DNA from: Deltaproteobacteria bacterium
Lineage (GTDB): Bacteria > Desulfobacterota > BSN033 > UBA1163
Length of the DNA stretch: 8,862 nt
Assembly (NCBI GenBank): GCA_016875155.1
Contig: VGSD01000089.1
Coordinates: 1-8,862, forward strand
Direction of reading: 5' to 3'
Every line of letters starts with the position of its first letter. Positions within the stretch are counted from its first letter, which is position 1. The translations under genes and the position numbers were made by a program. The notes under the pieces are model-generated. The model made no database searches. It was not told where the DNA came from and saw only the letters and a list, made by a program, of their open reading frames with translations. Shown in pieces: positions 1 to 8,862 of this stretch.

Positions 1-563
1 GTATTGACCTTCTCCTTATCCCGCTCATCATAGATGAGAATGCCCTCCATCTTCTTCCCTTGGATTGGAACTTTATCGACATAGAGGACAAATCCATCAA
101 AGACATCGTTGAAGACCCGTTCTTTGATTTCAATATCCGCCTTCGATTGAGCCATTAGATAGAGCGTTGCCTTGAATCCGCGGTTTCCCCATGGGAGGCC
201 ATAGATGACCAGAAAAGTGGTAAGGAGATAGGTCCCGACGGAAAAAAGGAGAACGGGAAGATAGAGCTGATAAAGGCTTATCCCGGAGGCTTTAAAGGCG
301 GTGATTTCGCTGTCGCCTGAAAGTCTTCCGAAGGAGAGGAGAAGGCCCAGAAGGAAAGCCATCGGAATAGTGAAGATGAGGAACGAGGGAGAGATAAAAA
401 GAAGGAGCATAAGAATCTGCGAAAGGTTTACCCCCTGGGTCACAATCAGCTCGATCAGCTTTAAAATCTTATCCATCAGAAGGATCACAGTGAAGGTCAT
501 CAGTCCGATGAGAAAGATCGGGGAGATTTCTTTCAGGATATAGAGGTGGGTTGTTTTTTTCAT
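1..563 (-). CDS. lptF: LptF/LptG-family LPS export permease, N-terminal part (cut by window edge)
   Basis: Reading the minus strand from ATG at 563 gives 187 codons with no stop before the window edge; the C-terminal half lies outside. The protein begins MKKTTHLYILKEISPIFLIG and has hydrophobic segments at about residues 13-35, 52-78 and 98-122. It carries hallmarks of the YjgP/YjgQ permease family: the stretch FGRLSGDSEITAFKASGIS (78-96), the LPWGNRGF motif (123-130) and a following domain with IKERVFNDVFDGFVLYVD (146-163). In this family LptF and LptG form the inner-membrane part of the LptB2FG ABC transporter, which extracts lipopolysaccharide and passes it to LptC. LptF is preferred over LptG from the N-terminal motifs, but the two are paralogues. 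An in-frame stop lies four codons upstream, so the start cannot be extended. It is a host gene, outside the mobile element. Confidence 0.88.
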   Translation of the reverse strand, partial: MKKTTHLYILKEISPIFLIGLMTFTVILLMDKILKLIELIVTQGVNLSQILMLLLFISPSFLIFTIPMAFLLGLLLSFGRLSGDSEITAFKASGISLYQLYLPVLLFSVGTYLLTTFLVIYGLPWGNRGFKATLYLMAQSKADIEIKERVFNDVFDGFVLYVDKVPIQGKKMEGILIYDERDKEKVN

Positions 564-785
564 TCTCAGTCTATTCTAAGAAAGAGGGGAGGGGATGTCA
601 ACCCTTCGACTCCTTCGACTCCTCAGTATAAACGAAAGGGCTTGCCTTAGGGCCGAGGCTTTCGCGAGCTCAGGCGAATCGCTTAGTCCGAGGGCTCAGG
701 GTTGACCCTGAGCGGCACTTCTTTCCTCAACCTTCGAATACAGGGCTTAATGCCGTCGGATGGGTCAAGAAATGGCTCGAAAAAC
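564..785. repeat. Intergenic repeat-like DNA with palindromes
   Basis: There is no gene between lptF and the tRNA promoter. The stretch has two tandem copies of CCTTCGACT (603-611 and 612-620) and a perfect hairpin with arms GCTCAGGG (694-701) and CCCTGAGC (706-713) around a TTGA loop. It also has related fragments such as GCTTAGTCCGAGGGCT (680-695) and CTTAGGGCCGAGGC. No T-tract follows the hairpin, so it is not an obvious terminator. The composition resembles dispersed intergenic palindromic repeats, but whether copies exist elsewhere cannot be told from this window. Confidence 0.45.
573..601 (-). promoter_or_regulatory. Sigma70-type promoter for lptF
   Basis: On the minus strand a perfect -35 box TTGACA (601-596) is followed after exactly 17 bp by TAGAAT (578-573), five of six to consensus. 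Transcription would begin near 564-566, only one to three bases before the ATG at 563. The lptF transcript may therefore be almost leaderless. Confidence 0.65.
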
Positions 786-814
786 TTGACAAATTCCTAT
801 GAATGGATTAGTGT
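786..814 (+). promoter_or_regulatory. Probable promoter of tRNA-fMet
   Basis: A perfect TTGACA (786-791) lies 34 bases before the mature tRNA. A 17-bp spacer leads to TAGTGT (809-814), a weak -10 with three consensus positions. The -35 and the distance to the tRNA are convincing; the exact -10 is not. Confidence 0.5.
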
Positions 815-824
815 TAGCTCAGAT

Positions 825-901
<77 letters not shown>

Positions 902-907
902 ATAATA

Positions 908-2077
908 TTAAGGGGTTACGGCACATGCTGTGACTCCTTTTTCTTTGCTGGTGCCTATATAGGTGCCTACCGTTCCGGTTTTTCCACAAGTATCAGGCCA
1001 TTTAATTTGACTTAACTCATCCTCTGAAACCAGGTTATAGCGTTTAAAAACCGATATAGTTTTATGACCGGAGAGGCTCATAATTTGAAAGAAATCATTG
1101 CCCGCTCTTCGGAGATTGTTCAGGGCGCAGTGTCTCAGGTCATGGAAACAAAAATTTGTGAGTCCTGCTTTCTTACAAGCGGTCTGAAAGCTATGTTTTG
1201 TCTCATCGAAGGATTGACCATTGCGAAGGAATACTCTTTCAGTGTGGATTGAGCGTGGGATTCTTTCAAGGGTAGCTCTTACTACCGGATGAAGGGGAAT
1301 GCTTCTTCCGCAATCGGTTTTGGTTCGTTCCTTAGCGAGTCGAACAAAGCCTTTCTTTATATCCACTTCAGGCCATGTCAGTTTAACGATCTCATCCCGA
1401 CGCATGCCCATATAATAGGCCATTTCGATTATTGGCTTTAAATGGCTTTCAGACGCATCGAGAAGGGCTTGAAACTCATCATCGGTCAAAATGCTTTGCC
1501 TAACATTGTTTTCAGTCAATCTCTTTATACCTGCAATGGGGTTGATGCTTAGTTTTCCATGCCGGACAGCACGGTTAAAGATGGTTTTTAGGCAGACCAC
1601 CTCTTTATTTACTTCCGATGGGGTGATGGTTCTATCCGGATGGACTTTAGATGGTTCGCTTAGCCGGATCGTTCGGAAAGATTCGATTTTACCAGGGCTG
1701 ATGGCTTTTATCTTCGTTCCTTCACCTAATAACCTTTTGAGATGAGCCGTGAAGTGCTTATCTCTTCGGTAACTATCCTTTGCTTTCACTTCCGGGAGTG
1801 AGAGATACCATTCGCAAAGTTCTCCCAATGTTAGCCTGGCGGCTTTGTCTTTCTCAATGAACCGCTCTTCCGTTCTTAATTTTAACAGATCCCGTTCTTT
1901 CTGTTCGGCTGCCTCTTTATTAGGGCCGATTCGCTCCCTATGCTTTCGACCGTTGAGATATACGCTAATCCAGTATATTTTGCCTGAGTATTTCTTCATC
2001 GAGAAGCCGCATGAACAGGACTTCTTCTTAATCGCCCACCTCTTCTTACATACCGGACATTCCTGTAATAAAGCCAT
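908..2077 (-). CDS. int: Tyrosine recombinase (phage-type integrase)
   Basis: This 389-residue site-specific recombinase would catalyse integration and excision at tRNA-fMet. The N-terminus has a small zinc-ribbon-like cluster (C7-x2-C10, C21-x-C23), followed by an AP2-like arm-binding region (about 25-75) and a SAM-like core-binding domain (about 82-175). The catalytic domain (about 195-350) has the full set of residues: R226 in GMRRDEI, K253 in RTKTDCGRSIPL, H312-x-x-R315 in HDLRH, H338 in LSGHKT and the nucleophile Y347 in FKRYN. An AAAGGAGG ribosome site lies eight bases before ATG 2077. The gene follows the 2094-2708 gene by 16 bp and is probably co-transcribed with it. The last codons (GTVGTYIGT) encode DNA repeats that look like arm-type binding sites. 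No key residue is missing, so it should be active. Confidence 0.96.
   Translation of the reverse strand: MALLQECPVCKKRWAIKKKSCSCGFSMKKYSGKIYWISVYLNGRKHRERIGPNKEAAEQKERDLLKLRTEERFIEKDKAARLTLGELCEWYLSLPEVKAKDSYRRDKHFTAHLKRLLGEGTKIKAISPGKIESFRTIRLSEPSKVHPDRTITPSEVNKEVVCLKTIFNRAVRHGKLSINPIAGIKRLTENNVRQSILTDDEFQALLDASESHLKPIIEMAYYMGMRRDEIVKLTWPEVDIKKGFVRLAKERTKTDCGRSIPLHPVVRATLERIPRSIHTERVFLRNGQSFDETKHSFQTACKKAGLTNFCFHDLRHCALNNLRRAGNDFFQIMSLSGHKTISVFKRYNLVSEDELSQIKWPDTCGKTGTVGTYIGTSKEKGVTACAVTP
948..970. repeat. Left pair of putative integrase arm-type sites
   Basis: Two direct copies of GGTGCCTA (950-957 and 962-969), 12 bp apart, lie inside the 3' end of int, about 50 bp from the tRNA. The 23-bp block matches 8773-8795 with only two differences. 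Paired direct repeats flanking an att core are typical of lambda-type integrase arm sites; the function is inferred. Confidence 0.6.
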
Positions 2078-2093
2078 ATCGTCTGCCTCCTTT

Positions 2094-2708
2094 CTAAAGT
2101 TGAGTTTTAAAAATTCTACGCTGCTTCCTTGCCTTAACGTGTCGGTATCGCCTTTTTGACAATTGCTGATGTTTTTTTAAATGAGCTTTGTATCGTTTAG
2201 GATCGGCCTTAATTATTTCATATTGCCTTTGGGCATAGTATTTCATTGTGCATGGAGGGGCGCAAAATCTTTTAAACCGTCCTGTTACGTTAATAAATAA
2301 ACGACGGCATTGAGGGCACACTCCAAGAACATCGGAGGGAAGCCCATCGAGCAAAGAAGCGAGTCTGTAGCGGGCCGTTGCTTCAATATCACTGTGCTGA
2401 TGTCCAAGAGAGAAGCAACCTTCCACTATGGAAAAGATGGGTTTCACGGAATCCAAAAATTTAATATGAGGACTTTCTCTCTCGGTGAGCAATATCTCCC
2501 GAAGGAATGATGCCAGAGTTTTCTGAACCGTAAAAAGAGATTCTTTCACTTGCTCAATATCCAATTCACTTTTTGATTGTGGAAACACACCATAAAGAAA
2601 GGTATTCATTTCTTCCGCAAACTGTTTTATTTCCTCATCGGGAAAAACATCTAAGTTGCCCTTTACCAGGTTCATCGCCCACTGAAGCATTTTCTTTTTT
2701 TCGTTCAT
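2094..2708 (-). CDS. CGNR-like zinc-finger protein, candidate element regulator
   Basis: This 204-residue protein is mostly helical up to about residue 125. A treble-clef-like cysteine cluster follows: C131-P-Q-C134, then C149-A-P-P-C153, inside CPQCRRLF...RFKRFCAPPCTMKYYAQR. The spacing and context resemble the CGNR zinc finger, with CTMK replacing the CGNR signature itself. A very basic tail (about 170-202) could bind nucleic acid. The start is set by a GAGGTG ribosome site seven bases before ATG 2708. It is the first gene of the leftward operon and is followed by int. It is transcribed divergently from alpA, the position where staphylococcal islands carry the master repressor Stl. That role is inferred from position only; it has no classic helix-turn-helix. 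Confidence 0.7.
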   Translation of the reverse strand: MNEKKKMLQWAMNLVKGNLDVFPDEEIKQFAEEMNTFLYGVFPQSKSELDIEQVKESLFTVQKTLASFLREILLTERESPHIKFLDSVKPIFSIVEGCFSLGHQHSDIEATARYRLASLLDGLPSDVLGVCPQCRRLFINVTGRFKRFCAPPCTMKYYAQRQYEIIKADPKRYKAHLKKHQQLSKRRYRHVKARKQRRIFKTQL

Positions 2709-2729
2709 AGTGTGTCACCTCTATACTTT

Positions 2730-2758
2730 AATATATATAATCAAATATCGTTTGTCAA
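2730..2758 (-). promoter_or_regulatory. Leftward promoter for the zinc-finger gene and int
   Basis: On the minus strand a perfect TTGACA (2758-2753) and TATATT (2735-2730) are separated by exactly 17 bp. This strong sigma70-type promoter starts transcription about 15 bases before the ATG-proximal ribosome site of the gene ending at 2094. Confidence 0.78.
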
Positions 2759-2807
2759 GGGTTATTATTTAATATATAGTAATAAACATCGTTTTGGACG
2801 AGTTATT

Positions 2808-2824
2808 TTATAGTATTACTATAA
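2808..2824. promoter_or_regulatory. Perfect 17-bp palindromic operator candidate
   Basis: TTATAGTA and TACTATAA flank a single T, giving a perfect 8-bp dyad. It lies between the two divergent promoters, about 50 bp upstream of the leftward -35 and 15 bp upstream of the rightward -35. A related half-site TATAGTA lies at 2775-2781. It is a plausible site for a dimeric repressor; the protein is unknown. Confidence 0.5.
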
Positions 2825-2838
2825 CATACTGATTTTGC

Positions 2839-2867
2839 TTGACTAACACGAAAAAATACTGTATGTT
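2839..2867 (+). promoter_or_regulatory. Rightward promoter for alpA and the replication genes
   Basis: TTGACT (2839-2844) and TATGTT (2862-2867) are spaced by 17 bp, five and four positions to consensus. The -10 box is itself part of a palindrome at 2862-2879, so this promoter could be blocked directly by a repressor. Confidence 0.65.
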
Positions 2868-2879
2868 AAAAGTAACATA
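2862..2879. promoter_or_regulatory. Operator-like inverted repeat over the rightward -10
   Basis: The perfect 7-bp arms TATGTTA (2862-2868) and TAACATA (2873-2879) are separated by AAAG. A third exact copy of the half-site, TAACATA, lies at 2822-2828, overlapping the other palindrome. The position over the -10 and the start region suits a repressor site. Confidence 0.5.
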
Positions 2880-2900
2880 TAAACGAAGGAGGTTTTTATT

Positions 2901-3086
2901 ATGGAAAATTCTTTGATGACGTTGAGGGAAGTAGCAAGGAAACTCTCTCTTTCACCGAGTACCCTTCGGACGTGGACATTTCAGAAGCGCATCCCTTTTG
3001 TGAGATTGGGCAGGCGAATCGCTTTTAGAAATGAGGATGTCGAAAAACTCATCGAGCGTAACTTAGTGGAGTCTGAAGAGGTGTGA
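2901..3086 (+). CDS. AlpA-like excisionase/regulator (MerR-type HTH)
   Basis: This 61-residue protein consists almost entirely of one winged helix-turn-helix of the HTH_17/AlpA type: LREVARKLSLSPSTLRTWTF (residues 8-27), then IPFVRLGRRIAFRNEDVEKLI (31-51). The tryptophan after the recognition helix and the R-x-G-R-R-x-x-F pattern are typical. Family members act as excisionases (recombination directionality factors) and as transcriptional activators of integrase or satellite genes. A GGAGG site lies eight bases before the ATG. It is the first rightward gene, directly behind the operator-covered promoter, and the primase gene follows after 13 bp. That position fits an early switch protein that promotes excision; which DNA it binds is not visible. 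Confidence 0.85.
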   Translation: MENSLMTLREVARKLSLSPSTLRTWTFQKRIPFVRLGRRIAFRNEDVEKLIERNLVESEEV

Positions 3087-3099
3087 AAGGAGTTTAGAA

Positions 3100-5274
3100 A
3101 TGCCGATCCTCGATGGGCTTCACCCAGATCACCTTGCAGATCTTCGCAAATCAGGATTAACGGATGAAACGATAGCGGCAGCCAAAATCTACAGCGTCCG
3201 GCCTGCCGACATCAACAAAAAGCTGGGGATGAATCTTCCCTGGGTTGAATCCGTAATGGCCTTTCCGTACCCCGGATGTGATGAGTCTGAAGTCTATAAA
3301 ATCTTTCCTTCCCGCAATGGCCTAAAATACATTCAACCAAAAGGGACACAGAGCCGTGTCTATTTTCCTCCTCCGGTTCGAGAAATCCTTTCAAACCAAT
3401 CCATTCCTATTTACGGCACAGAAGGTGTAAAGAAAGCTCTTAAATCAACACAGGAAGGTGTTCCGTGTTTTGCATTGAGCGGTTTGTGGAACTGGAGCGA
3501 TGGATCAGAGGAAAAAAAATTAATCCCTTATTTTGATCTCATCAATCTGGATGGCCGGACTATCTACTTCACCCCGGACAACGACTGGGAGCTACCGAAT
3601 CGGCATGGAGAGCAACGGAATCTCCGCCAGGCCGTCTATGAGCTGGCGTATCGTTTGATAGATCGGGGAGCGAAGGTTTACGTTATCGAACTCCCACCCG
3701 GGCCGCTAAAGGGCGTGGATGATTACCTCTGCCAGCACTCCATTGAAGATTTTCATTCACTGCCGAAGAGGGAAATAAAAAAGCAGACAATCGAGGAGAT
3801 GATTCAGGCTGCCTCCCTGGAGAATCTCCGGGACATCATAAAAAGATTGGCCGGGCTTCACGAGACGGAGCGGGCAGTCCACGTCAATGCGCTGGCAAAA
3901 AAACTGAACGTTTCAAAGCGGGCGATCCAGAAGGATATTGATGGATTGACCAGGGGGAAGACCGAGCCTACCGACATTGACAGGCTCCTCGAGGGTGGGG
4001 GAGATCCGGCGTCGAGGTATTCGGCTCAAAATTTTATTGACGATGTTCTTTCATTCGGGGCCATCATTGGCGGGGAGCGATTACTTGTTCAGTCAAACGG
4101 GGAAATCCTCTTCGAGGATGGAGAATCATTCCGGTTCAATAGAACATCTATAACAGCAGAAGCAGTCAGGCGTTATCGAGCCGGGGATGATGTTATTGGG
4201 GCCGACCTTATTAACCGAATACAGGGACTCCTTATCGACCACGTTGTGTTTAAGGATGATCGTCTTCCAACTTTATTGGCTGTCTGGATTGTGGGAACTT
4301 ACTTTTATAAAATATTCCGATTTTACGGTTATATCTGGGTGAACTCCCCTGTCAAAAGATGCGCAAAATCTTTAGTCCTGGAGATCATCAGTCTCATTGC
4401 CTTCAATAGCACAACACGGCTCGTGAACCCATCATCCTCTTTCCTGTTCCGTGAAGTAGACCGGAACGATAGGACGCTCGTTATAGATGAGGTTGAATCA
4501 TTAGGGGCCGGAGATAAAGAGCAGAAGGCCGAGATTATGGGACTGCTGAATGGTGGTTTTCAGTCTGGCTCACAGGTTCCACGAATGGAATCAAAAAACA
4601 AAGAATTTGTAGTCGCCTACTTTAACGCGTATTCCCCGAAGGCGCTGGCAGGGATAAAAACCATTGTGGATACCATCGAAGATCGATCATTCAAAATTCC
4701 GATGATCAGAAAAAAGAGGACAGAAAAAGTCAAGAGGTTCAATCTACGGGCCCTGGATTCTTTCATCGAAAAAATCAAAGAGGACTGTTTCGTATGGGCC
4801 TTACGATACGCCGGGGATGTTTCAGAAGTTTACCGTGAGGGACTGGATTGGAAAGGGACTGAGAACTTAGACGATAGGATGCGAGACATCCTGGAGCCTC
4901 TTCTTTCCATCGCTGCCGTGGTCGATACACAGGCGGGGGGCGGTGAACTCGCAAAAACACTTATTAGCGTATCGAAGGACATAGGCCGGGGCAGGGAAGA
5001 TCAGGAGGCTCTCAATGGTTCGGTTCCCGCTGTTGTATCCGTCATGAAGAGCCTGGTTGATGGGGCCGATGAGAAGTTCGTGTCGGCAGATGAGTTGTTC
5101 GGTAAGTTTAAAGAGGATGAGGATCTCGGGTGGATCGAGTCAAAACGGGGGCTGGCTTTCTTTCTGGCAAAGCTGGAACTCCCTCGTATCCGTAAAGGTA
5201 GCGGGAAGGAAACCGTGCGCGGATACAAAGTCCAACGTGCTTGGATCGACGATCTGGAGCAGCGATATGCGTGA
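3100..5274 (+). CDS. Primase-helicase-like replication protein (DUF3854 TOPRIM + DUF3631 ATPase)
   Basis: This 724-residue fusion protein is the likely replication initiator of the element. Residues 5-225 match the DUF3854/TOPRIM pattern: YPG (57-59), the acidic TEGVKKA motif (E108), the D160-x-D162 pair in TPDNDW, and a closing KGVDDYL (204-210). Residues 255-284 form a small helix-turn-helix. Residues about 385-545 resemble the DUF3631 ATPase. They have a P-loop-like SPVKRCAKS (416-424), Walker B TLVIDE (D463, E464), LLNGGF, a P-K-A-L-A-G-I stretch (513-519) and an arginine-finger-like DTIEDRSFKI (524-533). The Walker A glycine before K423 is replaced by alanine, which is unusual. An AAGGAG site precedes ATG 3100. 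The gene directly precedes the iteron region, as rep genes do in phage satellites. Primer synthesis and unwinding are inferred from the families, not shown. Confidence 0.85.
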   Translation: MPILDGLHPDHLADLRKSGLTDETIAAAKIYSVRPADINKKLGMNLPWVESVMAFPYPGCDESEVYKIFPSRNGLKYIQPKGTQSRVYFPPPVREILSNQSIPIYGTEGVKKALKSTQEGVPCFALSGLWNWSDGSEEKKLIPYFDLINLDGRTIYFTPDNDWELPNRHGEQRNLRQAVYELAYRLIDRGAKVYVIELPPGPLKGVDDYLCQHSIEDFHSLPKREIKKQTIEEMIQAASLENLRDIIKRLAGLHETERAVHVNALAKKLNVSKRAIQKDIDGLTRGKTEPTDIDRLLEGGGDPASRYSAQNFIDDVLSFGAIIGGERLLVQSNGEILFEDGESFRFNRTSITAEAVRRYRAGDDVIGADLINRIQGLLIDHVVFKDDRLPTLLAVWIVGTYFYKIFRFYGYIWVNSPVKRCAKSLVLEIISLIAFNSTTRLVNPSSSFLFREVDRNDRTLVIDEVESLGAGDKEQKAEIMGLLNGGFQSGSQVPRMESKNKEFVVAYFNAYSPKALAGIKTIVDTIEDRSFKIPMIRKKRTEKVKRFNLRALDSFIEKIKEDCFVWALRYAGDVSEVYREGLDWKGTENLDDRMRDILEPLLSIAAVVDTQAGGGELAKTLISVSKDIGRGREDQEALNGSVPAVVSVMKSLVDGADEKFVSADELFGKFKEDEDLGWIESKRGLAFFLAKLELPRIRKGSGKETVRGYKVQRAWIDDLEQRYA

Positions 5275-5306
5275 GTTTTTCGATATACCCTGTATCCCTG
5301 GAAAAC

Positions 5307-5442
5307 AAGTGTCGCAAGTGGCACATTCCTATAATATCAACAACTTAACCCGTTTTTGCAAGTGTCGCACTCCCTATCCTGCGACACTTAATTTTTTAAG
5401 ATAAGTCCTTGAAATTATTAACTTACGACACTTGCGACACTT
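5307..5442. other. Iteron-containing putative replication origin
   Basis: This non-coding stretch, just behind the primase gene, carries six copies of the 9-mer AAGTGTCGC. Forward copies lie at 5307-5315, 5316-5324 (two mismatches) and 5360-5368. Inverted copies lie at 5381-5389, 5425-5433 (one mismatch) and 5434-5442. The outer copies are tandem pairs pointing inward; the two middle copies face each other over a 10-bp loop. Two AT-rich blocks (5325-5357 and 5390-5424), the first with a perfect TATAAT at 5330-5335, lie between them. Iterons flanking AT-rich DNA next to a rep gene is the known plan of satellite origins. Origin function is inferred. Confidence 0.68.
5360..5397 (+). terminator. 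Possible intrinsic terminator formed by two opposed iterons
   Basis: AAGTGTCGCA (5360-5369) and TGCGACACTT (5380-5389) form a perfect 10-bp stem with a 10-base loop. AA and then six Ts (5392-5397) follow. The hairpin is about 85 bases past the primase stop and could end that transcript, although the same bases are also origin iterons. Confidence 0.4.
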
Positions 5443-5475
5443 AATTCCCAGGGGAAAGGGGGGTATACAAAAAAA

Positions 5476-5868
5476 ATGGGTGAGTTGGCAAAGAAGGCAC
5501 TCGCAGAGATCCGAGGGAACCGGAAGGGGGGCATCGATACTACCTTGATAGAGCGAACATTGCAAGAAATCAATTCGGACTACCCCGCGGGGCTGCTGGC
5601 GTGGATTCAGAAGGAAAAGCCGGAGGACTGGCAGAGGACGATGGATATTGAAGGCCGGATCAATAAGGCTGCACTGTCGGGTAATAGAGAGGCCCTAACA
5701 TCTGCCCTGGATGACTACAAGGGGTTTTTCACAGCAGTCTCGAAGGACTACCGGGAGACGGAAAGGCAAAGACCAGGGGAATATCAACGGTCACATGATG
5801 TAACCGTTGCCCCTACCCTCTCTGAGTTGGGTATAACGAAGCGGGAGCGCAGGATCGAGGAGTTTTGA
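5476..5868 (+). CDS. Hypothetical protein, first gene of the accessory operon
   Basis: I do not recognise this 130-residue protein. It is soluble, charged and mostly helical, with no signal peptide or membrane segment. The middle (about residues 38-97) has the pattern GLLAWIQKEKPEDWQRTMDI followed by EGRINKAALSGNREALTSAL and an aromatic helix. This kind of helical hairpin is often encoded behind primase/ATPase genes of integrated elements, though I recall no named function. The start at ATG 5476 follows a G-rich tract (5458-5463) by about twelve bases, a loose ribosome site, so the start is less certain than those of its neighbours. Its stop overlaps the next start in TGATG, coupling it to the S21-like gene. 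Confidence 0.72.
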   Translation: MGELAKKALAEIRGNRKGGIDTTLIERTLQEINSDYPAGLLAWIQKEKPEDWQRTMDIEGRINKAALSGNREALTSALDDYKGFFTAVSKDYRETERQRPGEYQRSHDVTVAPTLSELGITKRERRIEEF

Positions 5869-6062
5869 TGATAGCCGTTCTTGTGAAAAATAATAACATT
5901 ACGGAGGCGATCCGGCAATTAAAAAGGAAGATTCAAAAAAATGGCCTCCTAAGAGACATGAAGCGTCACGAATACCACCTTAGTCGATCTGAAAGGCGCA
6001 AGGAAAAGAATCATGAGGCACTCAAGAGGCTAAGGAAAAGGGAGAGGAGAAATTATTCGTGA
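5868..6062 (+). CDS. rpsU: Ribosomal protein bS21 homologue
   Basis: This 64-residue, strongly basic protein aligns along its whole length with small-subunit protein bS21. VKNNNITEAIRQLKRKIQKN (residues 6-25) matches the N-terminal helix, GLLRDMKRHEYHLSRSERR (26-44) matches the conserved middle, and the tail is rich in Lys and Arg. bS21 sits near the anti-Shine-Dalgarno end of 16S rRNA and helps mRNA engagement at initiation. Host rpsU is normally a housekeeping gene; here it lies inside an integrated element between an origin-proximal gene and unknown genes. Phage-encoded bS21 is known. The start is taken as ATG 5868, which shares its A with the upstream TGA and has GAGGAG five bases before; a TTG one codon earlier is less likely. 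A role in biasing host translation during induction is inference. Confidence 0.87.
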   Translation: MIAVLVKNNNITEAIRQLKRKIQKNGLLRDMKRHEYHLSRSERRKEKNHEALKRLRKRERRNYS

Positions 6063-6089
6063 CTGGAGTGAATAAGTAAGGGAGAGGGG

Positions 6090-6158
6090 GTGACTGAAGA
6101 GGATCGAAAGGTTGTTATGGATTTAGAAGAGACAGAAAAAAGTCAAGGAAACAAATAG
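6090..6158 (+). CDS. Possible 22-residue peptide
   Basis: A GTG start behind a GGAGAGG tract opens a 22-codon acidic reading frame (begins MTEEDRKVVMDLEE) that fills most of the gap between the S21-like gene and the glycine-rich gene. The ribosome site is very close to the start. It may be only a leader sequence; there is no evidence of conservation. Confidence 0.2.
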   Translation: MTEEDRKVVMDLEETEKSQGNK

Positions 6159-6168
6159 GAGGTGTGAG

Positions 6169-6561
6169 ATGAGCGACGGGATAGGAGGAGGAACCGGGGA
6201 TTTTGGTCTTACGGAAGCAGAAATGGCTATAGCTGAAGCAGCCAAAGGGCAGCAAGTCGCAGACATTGAGACTGGTGTATTAGGACATCCTGGCCCTGGC
6301 GAAGGATTTGGTGGTCCGGCTGGAAATGTGGCCGCAGACTTTGGCGGGGAAGCAGAAGGTGAAGGTTTTGGCGGCGGAGGAGGTGGCACTTTAGGAGAGG
6401 TTATACAGCAGCAGGCACCAGAAATACCTAAACCAGAGAAAGAGTCTAAGGCTATCACCAAAGAAAAGTCAAGAAAGAAGAGACGAAGACCTACTCTGCT
6501 GGAAGCTGAGGAAGGTTTAATTTCGTCTGTTCCCTCGTTTGGCCGGTCGTTGCTGAGATAA
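6169..6561 (+). CDS. Glycine-rich protein with phage-like C-terminal motif
   Basis: This 130-residue protein of unknown function has a strong AGGAGG ribosome site nine bases before ATG 6169. The first 75 residues are low-complexity, rich in Gly, Ala and Glu, with GEGFGG repeated at 44-49 and 64-69 and a run of glycines at 68-73. A Pro/Glu/Lys linker leads to a basic patch (SRKKRRRP, 101-108). The end, TLLEAEEGLISSVPSFGRSL (109-128), recalls the short C-terminal motif (TxL...GL...G..SLL) of small proteins encoded near the portal gene in some tailed phages. That likeness is from memory and weak. It could be a minor virion or head-assembly factor that helps the satellite use helper particles. 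No membrane segment or catalytic motif is seen. Confidence 0.75.
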   Translation: MSDGIGGGTGDFGLTEAEMAIAEAAKGQQVADIETGVLGHPGPGEGFGGPAGNVAADFGGEAEGEGFGGGGGGTLGEVIQQQAPEIPKPEKESKAITKEKSRKKRRRPTLLEAEEGLISSVPSFGRSLLR

Positions 6562-6620
6562 GTGAAGGGACATTAGGGGAAAATATGAGTTTTTGATTAC
6601 AAAACAAAAGGAGGATTGAG

Positions 6621-6962
6621 ATGATACCTATCGATGCAGTAACAAAACAAAATTGGCAACGCATGGAGCGGGGTCTCCCGCCTGTGAGTGAGAAGAAGAC
6701 TCCACGGAAGGAGCCGACGCCTCCAAAAATTGATAATCAAATTCGGTTCGAGGATGTTGAACTAACCTCTGGATTAAAGCTTCTCAGTAAGGCAGGAGAC
6801 CATCGGCGGAATAGCGAAGGGGTGTTGTTTACCGGTTACAGAGTCTGCATAGAAATCGAGCCGAAAAGGACTTTAACTGGATGGATCGGCGATGGGGATT
6901 TGAGTAGGTTATTGCCTTTTCTCAGGGAAAATTCAGACCCCAGAATTTTAAGCGCACTCTAA
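6621..6962 (+). CDS. Hypothetical protein
   Basis: This 113-residue protein is not recognised. AAGGAGG lies about seven bases before ATG 6621, a strong ribosome site. The N-terminal third (to about residue 40) is basic and proline-rich, apparently disordered. Residues 41-113 look like a small mixed alpha/beta domain with FEDVELTSGLKLLSK, GYRVCIEIEPKRTLTGWIGD and DLSRLLPFLREN. No metal-binding cluster, signal peptide or transmembrane helix is present. It lies in the same rightward gene run, 18 bases before the next start, so joint expression with its neighbours is likely. Its family cannot be named from sequence reading alone. Confidence 0.72.
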   Translation: MIPIDAVTKQNWQRMERGLPPVSEKKTPRKEPTPPKIDNQIRFEDVELTSGLKLLSKAGDHRRNSEGVLFTGYRVCIEIEPKRTLTGWIGDGDLSRLLPFLRENSDPRILSAL

Positions 6963-6980
6963 ATTTAGGAGGTGAAGATT

Positions 6981-7559
6981 ATGAATGAAAGCGGAAGCCC
7001 ACAAAATGTTATGCCAGCTGGTCTTGGTGAGCCGGATTATGACAGCCTGAGCGAGTCTGAGGCGTCGGCTGAATATCAGCAGCTTTTTAACGACAGAATA
7101 CAGGGGAAAAATCGTTGGTCTTCTGAAAAATATTCAGAAATCTCCGACAAGCTCTTTCGCAAAGCTTATTCTAAAAAGATTGAAGAAAACCAGGGTAAGT
7201 CAGAGCAAGAGAGCCAGGAGTGGCTGGAGGCAGAGACCGACCGCATTGAAAGGCGAGATTCCACCCGTGAGCTGGGCGAGGCACGAAGGGAGGCTGCAAA
7301 ATATTTCGGCGGCGAGTCAGCAATGGAAAGGGTTATAGAGCAGGCCGAGTCTGTTTTGGAGGCTGTGAAAAGAGAAGAAGACCCCAGAGCAGATTACGAA
7401 TTTCTCAAAGAAACAGGTTTAGCAATCAATCCCAGGATCATCGAAATTATAGCTAACCTGCACGGCCACAAGGAACTCTACCCCATTGTTAGAAAAATCG
7501 GTGTGGCGGATTTGTTAAAACTTGGCCAAACGGCACTACGGAGAAGGGAGAAAAAGTGA
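6981..7559 (+). CDS. Acidic helical protein, scaffold-like (tentative)
   Basis: This 192-residue protein starts at ATG 6981, chosen because AGGAGGT (6967-6973) lies seven bases upstream; an in-frame GTG at 6972 overlaps that site and is unlikely. The N-terminal 30 residues are acidic and Ser/Gly-rich. The middle (35-135) is highly charged and helical, rich in Glu, Lys and Arg (SEQESQEWLEAETDRIERRD; ESAMERVIEQAESVLEAV). The C-terminus has FLKETGLAINPRIIEI followed by a short helical, basic end. An FL..TGL.n.P.vi..La pattern near the C-terminus occurs in some tailed-phage scaffold-type proteins, so a role in helper capsid assembly is conceivable. This is a low-confidence comparison from memory. 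Its stop overlaps the next start in TGATG. Confidence 0.72.
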   Translation: MNESGSPQNVMPAGLGEPDYDSLSESEASAEYQQLFNDRIQGKNRWSSEKYSEISDKLFRKAYSKKIEENQGKSEQESQEWLEAETDRIERRDSTRELGEARREAAKYFGGESAMERVIEQAESVLEAVKREEDPRADYEFLKETGLAINPRIIEIIANLHGHKELYPIVRKIGVADLLKLGQTALRRREKK

Positions 7560-7900
7560 TGGATGTTAAAAAAAAGATTCAGACGAAACTAAAAGAGAAT
7601 GTTGATCGTTCCTTTAAAACTTTTAATTCTCAGAGAGAGACAGATATTGAAGAACTGTCCACTCTATATCAGCGACTGGAAACTTTATCGGATCAAAGAA
7701 GAGTGCTAATTGAAACTCAGGAATCTGAAAGCAAAAACTATCTTCCTAACCGAAAAGTGATGAACCAGTGCGAATTAAAGTTATTCGATGTCGAGAAGAA
7801 AGTCAAGGAGGCTGAAAAAAAATCCGATCTTCTCTTTAAAAGGCTGACAGCACTTCCTGATGGATTCCTGCAAGTTTATCCATTCTTTAAGATGATATGA
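7559..7900 (+). CDS. Hypothetical coiled-coil protein
   Basis: This 113-residue protein of unknown function starts at ATG 7559, which shares its A with the TGA of the upstream gene; GGGAG lies eight bases before. A GTG one codon upstream is in frame but less likely. The sequence is dominated by heptad-like charged helices: DIEELSTLYQRLETLSDQRR (about 29-48) and CELKLFDVEKKVKEAEKKSD (about 71-90), joined by a break at NYLPNRK. This predicts an antiparallel helical hairpin or dimeric coiled coil. The C-terminus is hydrophobic and aromatic (GFLQVYPFFKMI). No catalytic motif is visible. Overlap with both neighbours suggests a translationally coupled set with the genes on either side. Confidence 0.7.
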   Translation: MDVKKKIQTKLKENVDRSFKTFNSQRETDIEELSTLYQRLETLSDQRRVLIETQESESKNYLPNRKVMNQCELKLFDVEKKVKEAEKKSDLLFKRLTALPDGFLQVYPFFKMI

Positions 7901-8013
7901 TGGAAAAAGAAGAGGAGGAAAGGATACTTCAGGAACTGCTAATTGGTGAGATGTGGAAAGCCGCTTTGGATGAGTTTGGTTTTCCACGAGACAGCGGATT
8001 AGTTGAAGCATGA
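7900..8013 (+). CDS. Small acidic protein (37 residues)
   Basis: This short reading frame begins at ATG 7900, which overlaps the preceding TGA as TGATG, the same junction used at 5866-5870 and 7557-7561; an in-frame ATG at 7897 is an alternative. The product starts MEKEEEERILQELLIGEMWK and is an acidic amphipathic helix with a short FGFPRDSGL tail. It has no ribosome site of its own, so it would depend on re-initiation after the coiled-coil gene. The consistent coupling is the main reason to call it; function is unknown. An acidic partner for the basic coiled-coil neighbour is possible but speculative. Confidence 0.5.
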   Translation: MEKEEEERILQELLIGEMWKAALDEFGFPRDSGLVEA

Positions 8014-8015
8014 GG

Positions 8016-8058
8016 TTCAATTGAAGTTGAAGCATAGAACGTCATGCCTTCAATTGAA
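8016..8058. promoter_or_regulatory. Inverted repeat/hairpin in the terS leader
   Basis: The palindrome TTCAATTGAA occurs twice, at 8016-8025 and 8049-8058, 33 bp apart. In RNA the arms TTCAATTGAAG (8016-8026) and CTTCAATTGAA (8048-8058), plus GCAT (8032-8035) with ATGC (8044-8047), make a long stem with a five-base bulge and an eight-base loop. The terS ribosome site lies just outside it. An 11-bp repeat AGTTGAAGCAT (8001-8011, 8025-8035) overlaps the left arm. It may be a regulatory hairpin or a double operator controlling terS. Confidence 0.45.
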
Positions 8059-8079
8059 TCAAGACTGGAGGTGGTAAGC

Positions 8080-8664
8080 ATGGGTAAGATATTGGATACT
8101 AAACTACTTCTTCAAATGCGGGAGGAAGGTAAAACCTTAAAGGAGATTGCCAGTCGTTTTAATGTCTCATTTCAGGCTATATCTCAAAGGTTGAAACTGC
8201 TCCAGGGTTATTCAATGCCTGCATCATTGGATAAGCTCACCGAGAAGGAAAAGAAATTTGCCGTTGCTGTTGCTGGTGGTAAATCTCAAACTCAGGCCGC
8301 TTTCGATGCATACGACGTGGTTGATCGAGTCTCCGCCAAAGCCATTGGGCACAAATTAATGAAAGATGAGGGTGTGAAAGCCGCTGTAACGGATTTGATG
8401 GAGATGGAGGGATTGACTAAAAGAAACAGGGTAAGGCGATTAAAAGAAATCGTGTATCACAAAGACCCCAATGCTGCCATACGGGGTTTGGATCAATGCT
8501 GGAAACTTGACGGGTCTTACGCTCCTACAAAGGTGGTTACTATGAACTTTGAATATGCTGATATGATAAAACGAAAAAGGGAAATCCTTGCCGAGATGGC
8601 AGAACTTGAAGAAAAGTATGGTAAAGATGCTTTAGAGGCTGCCATCGAAGAGGATGATGATTAA
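8080..8664 (+). CDS. terS: Terminase small subunit (TerS)
   Basis: This 194-residue DNA-recognition subunit of a phage packaging motor would bind the packaging site and recruit a large terminase. Residues 9-42 form a helix-turn-helix (LLLQMREEGKTLKEIASRFN, then VSFQAISQRLK). Residues 52-112 match the Terminase_2-type core: LTEKEKKFAVAVAGGKSQTQ, then AAFDAY, a KLMKD-x-x-V helix and EMEGL. A helical stretch with GLDQCWKLDGSYAP (136-149) and an acidic oligomerisation-type tail follow. ATG 8080 is chosen because GGAGGTGG lies seven bases upstream; an in-frame ATG at 8044 has no ribosome site and lies inside a hairpin. No large subunit is encoded, which fits a satellite redirecting a helper's TerL. 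The stop lies at the junction of a 15-bp tandem duplication. Confidence 0.85.
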   Translation: MGKILDTKLLLQMREEGKTLKEIASRFNVSFQAISQRLKLLQGYSMPASLDKLTEKEKKFAVAVAGGKSQTQAAFDAYDVVDRVSAKAIGHKLMKDEGVKAAVTDLMEMEGLTKRNRVRRLKEIVYHKDPNAAIRGLDQCWKLDGSYAPTKVVTMNFEYADMIKRKREILAEMAELEEKYGKDALEAAIEEDDD

Positions 8665-8677
8665 GAGGATGATGATT
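8648..8677 (+). repeat. 15-bp tandem duplication at the terS stop
   Basis: AAGAGGATGATGATT occurs twice in direct succession (8648-8662 and 8663-8677). The junction creates the TAA stop at 8662-8664. Past it the same frame stays open to a TAA at 8716-8718. Confidence 0.85.
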
Positions 8678-8718
8678 CAAGCCAAAATTCTGATTCGTTG
8701 ACACAGGAGATAGACTAA

Positions 8719-8862
8719 CTTTTGCGCCAGGGGAGCGAAGGGGGGGGTAGGGGTGAAAAAGAGGGGGGGTATCTGGTGCCTGTATAGGTGCCTATCCTCC
8801 CCCGTTTGGTGCCTACAGATGTGCCCATAAGCGATGTTATTCTTTATCACTTAATGTGACTT
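8719..8862. other. Gene-free right end of the element with G-rich tract
   Basis: No gene is seen after terS. The plus strand has four G-runs of 4, 8, 4 and 7 bases (8730-8733, 8740-8747, 8750-8753, 8763-8769) with short spacers, able in principle to form a G-quadruplex. They are followed by the right-hand arm-type repeats. The end of the window holds no copy of the tRNA 3' end. Confidence 0.6.
8775..8827. repeat. Right-hand putative integrase arm-type sites
   Basis: The copies are GGTGCCTG (8775-8782), GGTGCCTA (8787-8794), GGTGCCTA (8808-8815) and the degenerate TGTGCCCA (8820-8827). Within each of the two pairs the spacing is 12 bp, the same as in the left block at 950-969. All are in the same orientation. 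They are most simply read as the second arm of attP. Confidence 0.62.

Follow-up and report, generated by a model that had tools for sequence, protein, structure and literature searches.

What kind of mobile element occupies a tRNA-fMet gene in a deltaproteobacterial contig: a phage satellite, a prophage, or an island that is not packaged at all? The question is raised by contig VGSD01000089.1 (assembly GCA_016875155.1), of which positions 1 to 8,862 were analyzed; this whole stretch of 8,862 nucleotides is called the window here. The best explanation, to which a probability of roughly 0.7 is assigned, is that the window contains nearly the whole of a phage satellite, integrated and about 8.0 kb long, that would redirect packaging through its small terminase subunit (TerS). 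The features on which this reading is based are the following.

825–901, + strand: tRNA-fMet (anticodon CAT), the integration site (ARAGORN, Rfam tRNA)
856–920, no strand: probable attL core, placed from the 65-nt attL/attR repeat at locus L040
908–2077, − strand: tyrosine integrase (PF00589, 4.7e-22; phrog_1, 4e-55), with its tail KEKGVTACAVTP running through the attachment (att)/terminator segment
948–969, no strand: left arm-type repeat pair (GGTGCCTA units)
2901–3086, + strand: AlpA-like excisionase/regulator (PF12728 (HTH_17), 1.5e-11; TIGR01764, 9e-11)
3100–5274, + strand: primase/helicase of 724 aa, DUF3854 plus DUF3631-like (DUF3854 (PF12965), 2.9e-19)
5306–5442, no strand: replication origin candidate, with five iterons and a divergent sixth (5315–5325) in two inverted half-arrays (53/74/53 geometry)
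8080–8664, + strand: TerS, with a helix-turn-helix (HTH) and a Terminase_2-like domain (phrog_51, 1.2e-9)
8773–8825, no strand: right arm-type repeats (observed score reached in 0 of 2000 mononucleotide shuffles)

Gene plan of the element

A first-pass annotation, made from the sequence alone, had described an integrase and a regulator-like gene facing leftward, followed by AlpA, a primase, iterons, small genes and TerS facing rightward, and the profile and repeat scans agree with this order. Its statement that large terminase (TerL), portal, capsid and tail genes are absent holds up to position 8,862, as none was matched by the main open reading frames (ORFs) in Pfam, PHROG and TIGRFAM scans (ORF 7556–7900 being scanned separately against Pfam). 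The protein that it named TOPRIM/ATPase stands in part: a DnaG-like PADLOC model fits residues 74–221 (3.9e-6), but no Toprim family itself was matched in the profile scans and the best match is DUF3854. The site, named as tRNA-fMet, is the tRNA-Met(cat) that ARAGORN places at 825–901, also matched by Rfam tRNA, and the Gram-negative host suspected to lie outside the well-studied groups is a deltaproteobacterium, as indicated by a 99.7% match to contig VGSS01000018.1.

The small size and the phage-type genes might also describe a prophage in decay, its late genes gone. Against decay, the main ORFs are open and tightly packed, a purine-rich Shine-Dalgarno-like sequence precedes most of the 11 genes inspected (less clearly in the case of orf130), the element still has its origin array and arm sites, and the same plan is found at many tRNAs across different genomes, making decay very improbable.

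Right end of the element

The arm-type repeats, which the first-pass annotation overlooked at both ends, point to where the element stops. The sequence CTGGTGCCTrTATAGGTGCCTA is common to 948–969 and 8773–8794, and a poorer further copy lies at 8807–8825. The first 200 nt inside attL and the last 320 nt before attR were compared in 12 elements of the phylum for which both att repeats were found. The primase led to eight of these elements (TerS likewise led to L078), TerS to three more, and the host site to L040. The 12 come from 9 of 15 and 3 of 8 loci searched; the tRNA-repeat search for attR failed at 6 of 15 and 5 of 8, with L079 in both sets (and a weak 32-nt repeat there in the second). 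Among the 12 closed elements, 11 have 114–155 nt between the end of the best shared repeat and attR. The exception is L087, with 70 nt and a repeat no better than chance (107 of 300 shuffles); taken alone, the repeats are weak to moderate in L083 (40 of 300 shuffles), L092 (17), L150 (7) and L155 (4), and in the other seven the count is 0 of 300. Because of this spacing, attR is expected about 46–120 nt past position 8,862, that is, 46–87 nt past the window when counted from 8794 and 77–118 nt when counted from 8825, and the predicted length of the element is about 8.0 kb. At L083, a further, incomplete copy (36 nt) of the att repeat at tRNA-Glu lies ∼2.1 kb outside the island (5431–5466), as if a second element or a remnant stood in tandem.

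These repeats bear directly on the alternative of a complete prophage, of which the window would show the left end, terL, head and tail genes lying beyond 8,862 and TerS being the first packaging gene. They stand after TerS and match those beside attL, which in nearly all closed elements places attR shortly beyond and argues against a long late region.

TerS family in the phylum

The window protein was scanned as 8044–8664, its likely start being at 8080. In favor of a satellite, it has no match in 50,697 phage records, and its family has none in two IMG/VR scans. Its relatives at L078 and L079 match phrog_51 more strongly than it does (3.6e-12 and 2.5e-14). When 395 genomes of the phylum were searched with P0122–P0124, taken from a protein search, together with L078 and L079, 19 of them gave some match; once 11 weak rows (E >= 4.6e-7) were dropped, 10 strong matches (E <= 9.6e-27) in 9 genomes were counted. 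A PF00589 integrase is found at nine of these ten loci (all but L149), a tRNA gene at nine (all but L156), and a primase-type gene at seven. The primase types comprise DUF3854 (L078), DUF3631/Toprim (L079), DUF3987 (L150), DUF3987 with a CHC2 zinc finger (L152), Prim-Pol (L154), an NrS-1-type/DUF5906 protein (L155), and a stretch matched by the primase alignment (L156, G166:C80, 1.4e-9); at L153 a helicase takes the place of the primase, L151 is truncated, and L149 has a large ORF of no family. The presence of TerS beside several unrelated replication proteins indicates that it recurs independently of the replication module. Four of the ten loci are closed by tRNA repeats with 7.1–10.4 kb between cores, at tRNA-Gln (L078), tRNA-Arg (L150), tRNA-Lys (L154) and tRNA-Leu (L155).

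Scans of 11 genomes with two TerL families gave 14 matches to phrog_2 and two to phrog_15, one of the latter being the G001 element described below, and none lies on the contigs of the ten TerS genes; the eight phrog_51 matches there all fall on these TerS genes. Island content was surveyed at 13 loci (eight closed, five cut or weakly closed, with L040, L083, L087, L090 and L152 left out), which supplied 100 ORFs of 70 aa or more. TerL, portal and capsid are absent from the best 25 of 37 Pfam families matched (down to 2.5e-8) and from the best 25 of 85 PHROGs; TerS PHROGs top the PHROG list with five members, 5 of 100 ORFs at E <= 1e-4. In two islands of one genome (L078:5426–7082 and L149:5884–7714), small lipoprotein-like genes, recognized by eye and possibly cargo, stand in rows between tRNA and TerS.

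The recurrence of TerS also bears on a further alternative, a non-packaged integrative island that excises, replicates, and spreads by conjugation of a neighbor or by transformation, its TerS-like protein being a DNA-binding regulator. Closed islands with this primase type and no TerS-family match do exist (L076, L092 and L093 in genomes G117, G080 and G127, the single TerS-family match of G117 being on another contig than L076), and the TerS match of the window protein is in part to its HTH. Nevertheless, the matches to the TerS families phrog_51, phrog_641 and phrog_2606 fall outside the HTH, and the occurrence of TerS with unrelated replication genes (L150, L154, L155, L079) suggests selection for a packaging role. 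A non-packaged island is consequently considered improbable.

Viral relatives and the prophage alternative

Viral sequences were scanned with several proteins of the element. The primase alone gave no match and the primase alignment A1 gave four loci; orf130 (5476–5868) retrieved L001 and L002, the ribosomal protein bS21 homologue encoded at 5868–6062 retrieved L001, L002 and two phage-like contigs, and the integrase retrieved L001 again (as L159). L002 is nearly identical to part of L001 and is therefore not independent. L001 (IMGVR_UViG_3300031999_004976) is an IMG/VR contig that ends after TerL. It resembles the window in its integrase (59% identity), primase (64% in the best segment), orf130 relative (40%) and bS21 (30%; PF01165, 6.2e-8), and also in its zinc-finger gene, AlpA, and 53/74/53 origin geometry. 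Where the window has small genes and its own TerS, L001 instead encodes minor-tail-Z, a Nu1-like TerS and a gpA TerL. L001 may be a phage or a terminase-bearing satellite. Two further high-GC IMG/VR elements, L003 and L004, on contigs of 11.6 and 15.7 kb, encode a DUF3631-like helicase, and inspection by eye suggests terL, portal and capsid-like genes as well; presumably they resemble capsid-forming satellites.

L001 is what favors a complete prophage, since its left half is the same and is followed by packaging genes, and TerS normally precedes TerL in phages. The TerS families differ, however, being phrog_51 in the window and phrog_57 in L001, and the two TerL families scanned are absent from the contigs of the ten strong TerS relatives. 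Together with the arm-type repeats, these observations make a complete prophage unlikely.

Replication module

In addition to DUF3854, the primase matches DUF3631 (PF12307) at 1.3e-4, under the cut-off of that family. A protein search found 178 relatives, of which the best 120 were listed, and the primase alignment A1 yielded 25 stretches in genome contigs, none of them a relative. The primase cluster P0001 groups 7 contigs, of which the longest measures 27,761 nt. Downstream of the primase gene, five copies of AAGTGTCGCA with at most one mismatch lie within 5307–5442, where 0.28 would be expected; five copies were reached in 0 of 200 shuffles. In both the window and L001 the iterons are at offsets 0, 53, 74 and 127, those at 74 and 127 in reverse orientation, whereas the motif differs, being AAGTGTAAC in L001 (4454–4589) and AAGTGTCGC(A) in the window (5307–5442). 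The 53/74/53 geometry is found in the window, L001 and L002 and in 0 of 20 shuffles; among 19 other loci scanned, L090 alone matched, with 3 mismatches, which is taken as chance. The same spacing with a different motif suggests that iterons and initiator change together, as if origin and primase co-evolved.

Integration site and host

The left flank of the element identifies its host.

3–563, − strand: host lptF, N-terminal 187 aa (TIGR04407, 8.8e-43; 100% identical to L005)

Being truncated, lptF scores under the cut-off set for the full-length gene. A scan of genome contigs with the LptF fragment led to VGSS01000018.1 (Deltaproteobacteria bacterium isolate K_DeepCast_250m_m2_302; loci L005 and L040, G001:C18), in which LptF is 100% identical and which is 99.7% identical to window positions 1–947. 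Judged by this identity, the host is a deltaproteobacterium of the same species as G001. The same tRNA-fMet of G001 is occupied by a different, att-closed element of 13.1 kb (L040:3236–16428) with a gpA-type TerL (phrog_675, 5.7e-95) and an archaeo-eukaryotic-type (AEP-type) primase (PF22548, 1.3e-40), bounded by a 65-nt attL/attR repeat (3240–3304 and 16364–16428, 90.8%) and followed downstream of attR by a host gene of the metallo-β-lactamase (MBL) fold (PF12706, 1.9e-19). None of its 10 scanned ORFs, TerL and primase among them, matched capsid or portal families, and it is possibly a terminase-bearing element without head genes. In the relatives L006 and L007 the corresponding MBL-fold gene lies 122 and 111 nt past the tRNA, and these are empty sites. 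The attL core of the window is placed at 856–920 because the L040 repeat lies at the same site and window positions 1–947 are 99.7% identical to L005.

The integrases of the two elements at this site share the tail KEKGVTACAxTP, that of the other element being near-identical to KEKGVTACAVTP, because their last codons traverse the att/terminator segment. By eye, the end codons of the window integrase (902–947) overlap a terminator-like hairpin after the tRNA.

Regulatory region, small genes and bS21

The remaining features lie between the integrase and alpA and between the origin and TerS.

2094–2708, − strand: zinc-finger protein (CxxC...C by eye), probable regulator, divergent from alpA, with a counterpart in L001
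2722–2803, no strand: pair of imperfect direct repeats, 41 nt each (71%), between the divergent genes, a possible operator
5476–5868, + strand: orf130, of a family common to the L001, G007:C39 and G002:C120 elements
5868–6062, + strand: ribosomal protein bS21 homologue, 64 aa (PF01165, 6.2e-17; start by reading)
6169–6561, + strand: Gly-rich ORF, no convincing family
6621–6962, + strand: orf113, no family match
6981–7559, + strand: orf192, no convincing family
7559–7900, + strand: orf113b, listed as 7556–7900 from GTG, coupled to the preceding stop, no convincing family

The zinc-finger protein has weak profile matches (DUF6076, 0.054; an HNH-type PHROG, 0.016) and is 24% identical (E 2e-15) to its positional counterpart in L001; G007:C39 likewise encodes a protein of similar type. 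The gene between AlpA and the primase on that contig was considered as SpoVG and rejected, as it has no Pfam match. A 38-aa ORF at 7897–8013 overlaps, by eye, the stop of the preceding gene (ATGA).

The bS21 gene was overlooked in the first-pass annotation. Its start overlaps the stop of orf130 (TGATG), and its PF01165 score of 61.5 bits against a cut-off of 27 places the family assignment above the curated threshold. A protein search found the relatives P0125 and P0126; the near-identical P0125 (98%) lies on an 8049-nt contig, a length that a circular form would fit. Recent capture from a host was rejected, since identity to the chromosomal bS21 in 14 loci is 31–40% (the G001 chromosome has two bS21 genes). 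Standard island cargo was likewise rejected, with no PF01165 match inside the primase-bearing loci of 25 genomes and G007; a single sub-threshold match in G080 is on the contig of the primase locus, ∼32 kb away.

Phage-encoded bS21 is among the closest parallels. PMC6375957 reports bS21 in 1310 viral genomes or contigs, just three of them with temperate signatures, and incorporation of phage bS21 into Escherichia coli ribosomes, after which in vitro translation was ∼5% of normal; PMC9723584 proposes that phage bS21 favors phage messages late during infection. The bS21 of the window resembles a viral homologue, often aquatic, and differs in lying within an 8-kb integrated element, whereas the viral carriers are mostly without temperate signatures. 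No phage satellite with bS21 was found in literature searches. Belonging to the same rightward gene string, bS21 would probably enter ribosomes in the lytic phase and tune translation, a speculative step; that it displaces host or helper bS21 in the 30S subunit late, favoring satellite messages or starving the helper, is a tentative proposal.

Comparison with known satellites

The first-pass annotation had called the element compact and similar to a phage-inducible chromosomal island (PICI). Compactness is borne out by the predicted length and by the recurrence of the TerS family in compact tRNA islands of the phylum; the likeness to a PICI applies to gene order and does not extend to size, and the L001 relative carries a large terminase. 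According to PMC6092414, Gram-negative PICIs have an integrase, replication module and master regulator in conserved order, lack structural and lytic genes, use att sites never occupied by prophages, measure ∼12–15 kb, and depend on a helper phage for induction, packaging and interference. The gene order of the window follows this plan, with AlpA or the zinc-finger protein as the putative master regulator. No structural or lytic gene was matched up to 8,862, the window ending before the predicted attR, and the tRNA-fMet of the same species holds the 13.1-kb TerL element, whose scanned ORFs are without capsid or portal match. Against the PICIs of that account, which share the left integrase, regulator, AlpA, primase with origin, TerS in some, and absence of structural genes, the present element differs in its size, the zinc-finger gene divergent from alpA, bS21, host phylum, and lack of a known helper.

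The PICMIs, according to the available text of PMC10803314, have int, alpA and a primase of PF13148/PF19263 (DUF3987/DUF5906), with fis required in one version of the model and optional in another; AlpA and integrase are required for excision, and none of the six genes of the prototype is named terS. The likeness is in very small size and an integrase, AlpA and primase core. The differences from that description are the primase, which is PF12965 and weakly PF12307 in the window, the location at tRNA-fMet rather than fis, and the presence of TerS and bS21. PADLOC returned only HTH-type and primase-like matches, taken as no defense gene.

Capsid-forming PICIs make their own capsid. Like them, the element is an integrated satellite by the reading preferred here, with integrase, regulator and primase; it differs in that no capsid genes were found up to 8,862. 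Such PICIs are named in PMC11389934. No phage satellite or PICI of Desulfobacterota/Deltaproteobacteria was found in literature searches, although earlier automatic detection of such elements is possible. The element is best read as one that works like a PICI while departing from that definition in some respects.

Proposed mechanism and contrary evidence

For a satellite, gene families and arm sites suggest that integrase and AlpA would excise the element at tRNA-fMet, and the position of the primase and the conserved geometry that it would act at the adjacent iteron origin. Because no TerL or capsid is seen in the element, a helper phage is proposed to supply the large terminase and the empty heads, which TerS would recruit once bound to a site on the DNA of the satellite. 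The zinc-finger gene divergent from alpA would be the likely switch.

Several observations weigh against this reading. The strongest, with respect to the module as satellite-specific, is L001, which shares the module and yet has minor-tail-Z, Nu1-like TerS and gpA TerL genes, so the module also serves an element with a large terminase. The TerS of the window matches PF03592 at 0.0013, under the cut-off, and its structure model (mean predicted local distance difference test (pLDDT) 70.6, middling) has no PDB match at E <= 0.001. The IMG/VR pattern scans that returned no member of its family are of limited sensitivity. The TerL check spans phrog_2 and phrog_15 only, several of the ten TerS contigs are short or cut (G166:C80 inside TerS) such that TerL may lie beyond, and at L149 (G239:C139) no integrase was noticed on the contig and the large neighboring ORF has no Pfam match. 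Finally, attR is placed by prediction beyond the window, and helper phage, induction and packaging are proposed from sequence.

Implications

What is new here is the host phylum and the bS21 cargo. The TerS-bearing satellite plan is extended to Desulfobacterota/Deltaproteobacteria, the TerS family that marks compact tRNA islands is a handle by which more can be found, and the paired arm repeats offer a way to locate the end that an element lacks when its contig is broken. The bS21 gene gives a specific, testable idea, namely a satellite acting on the ribosome. Parasitism of a phage at the level of translation was not found described for satellites in literature searches; if the proposed role of bS21 is true, this satellite would parasitize its phage at that level.

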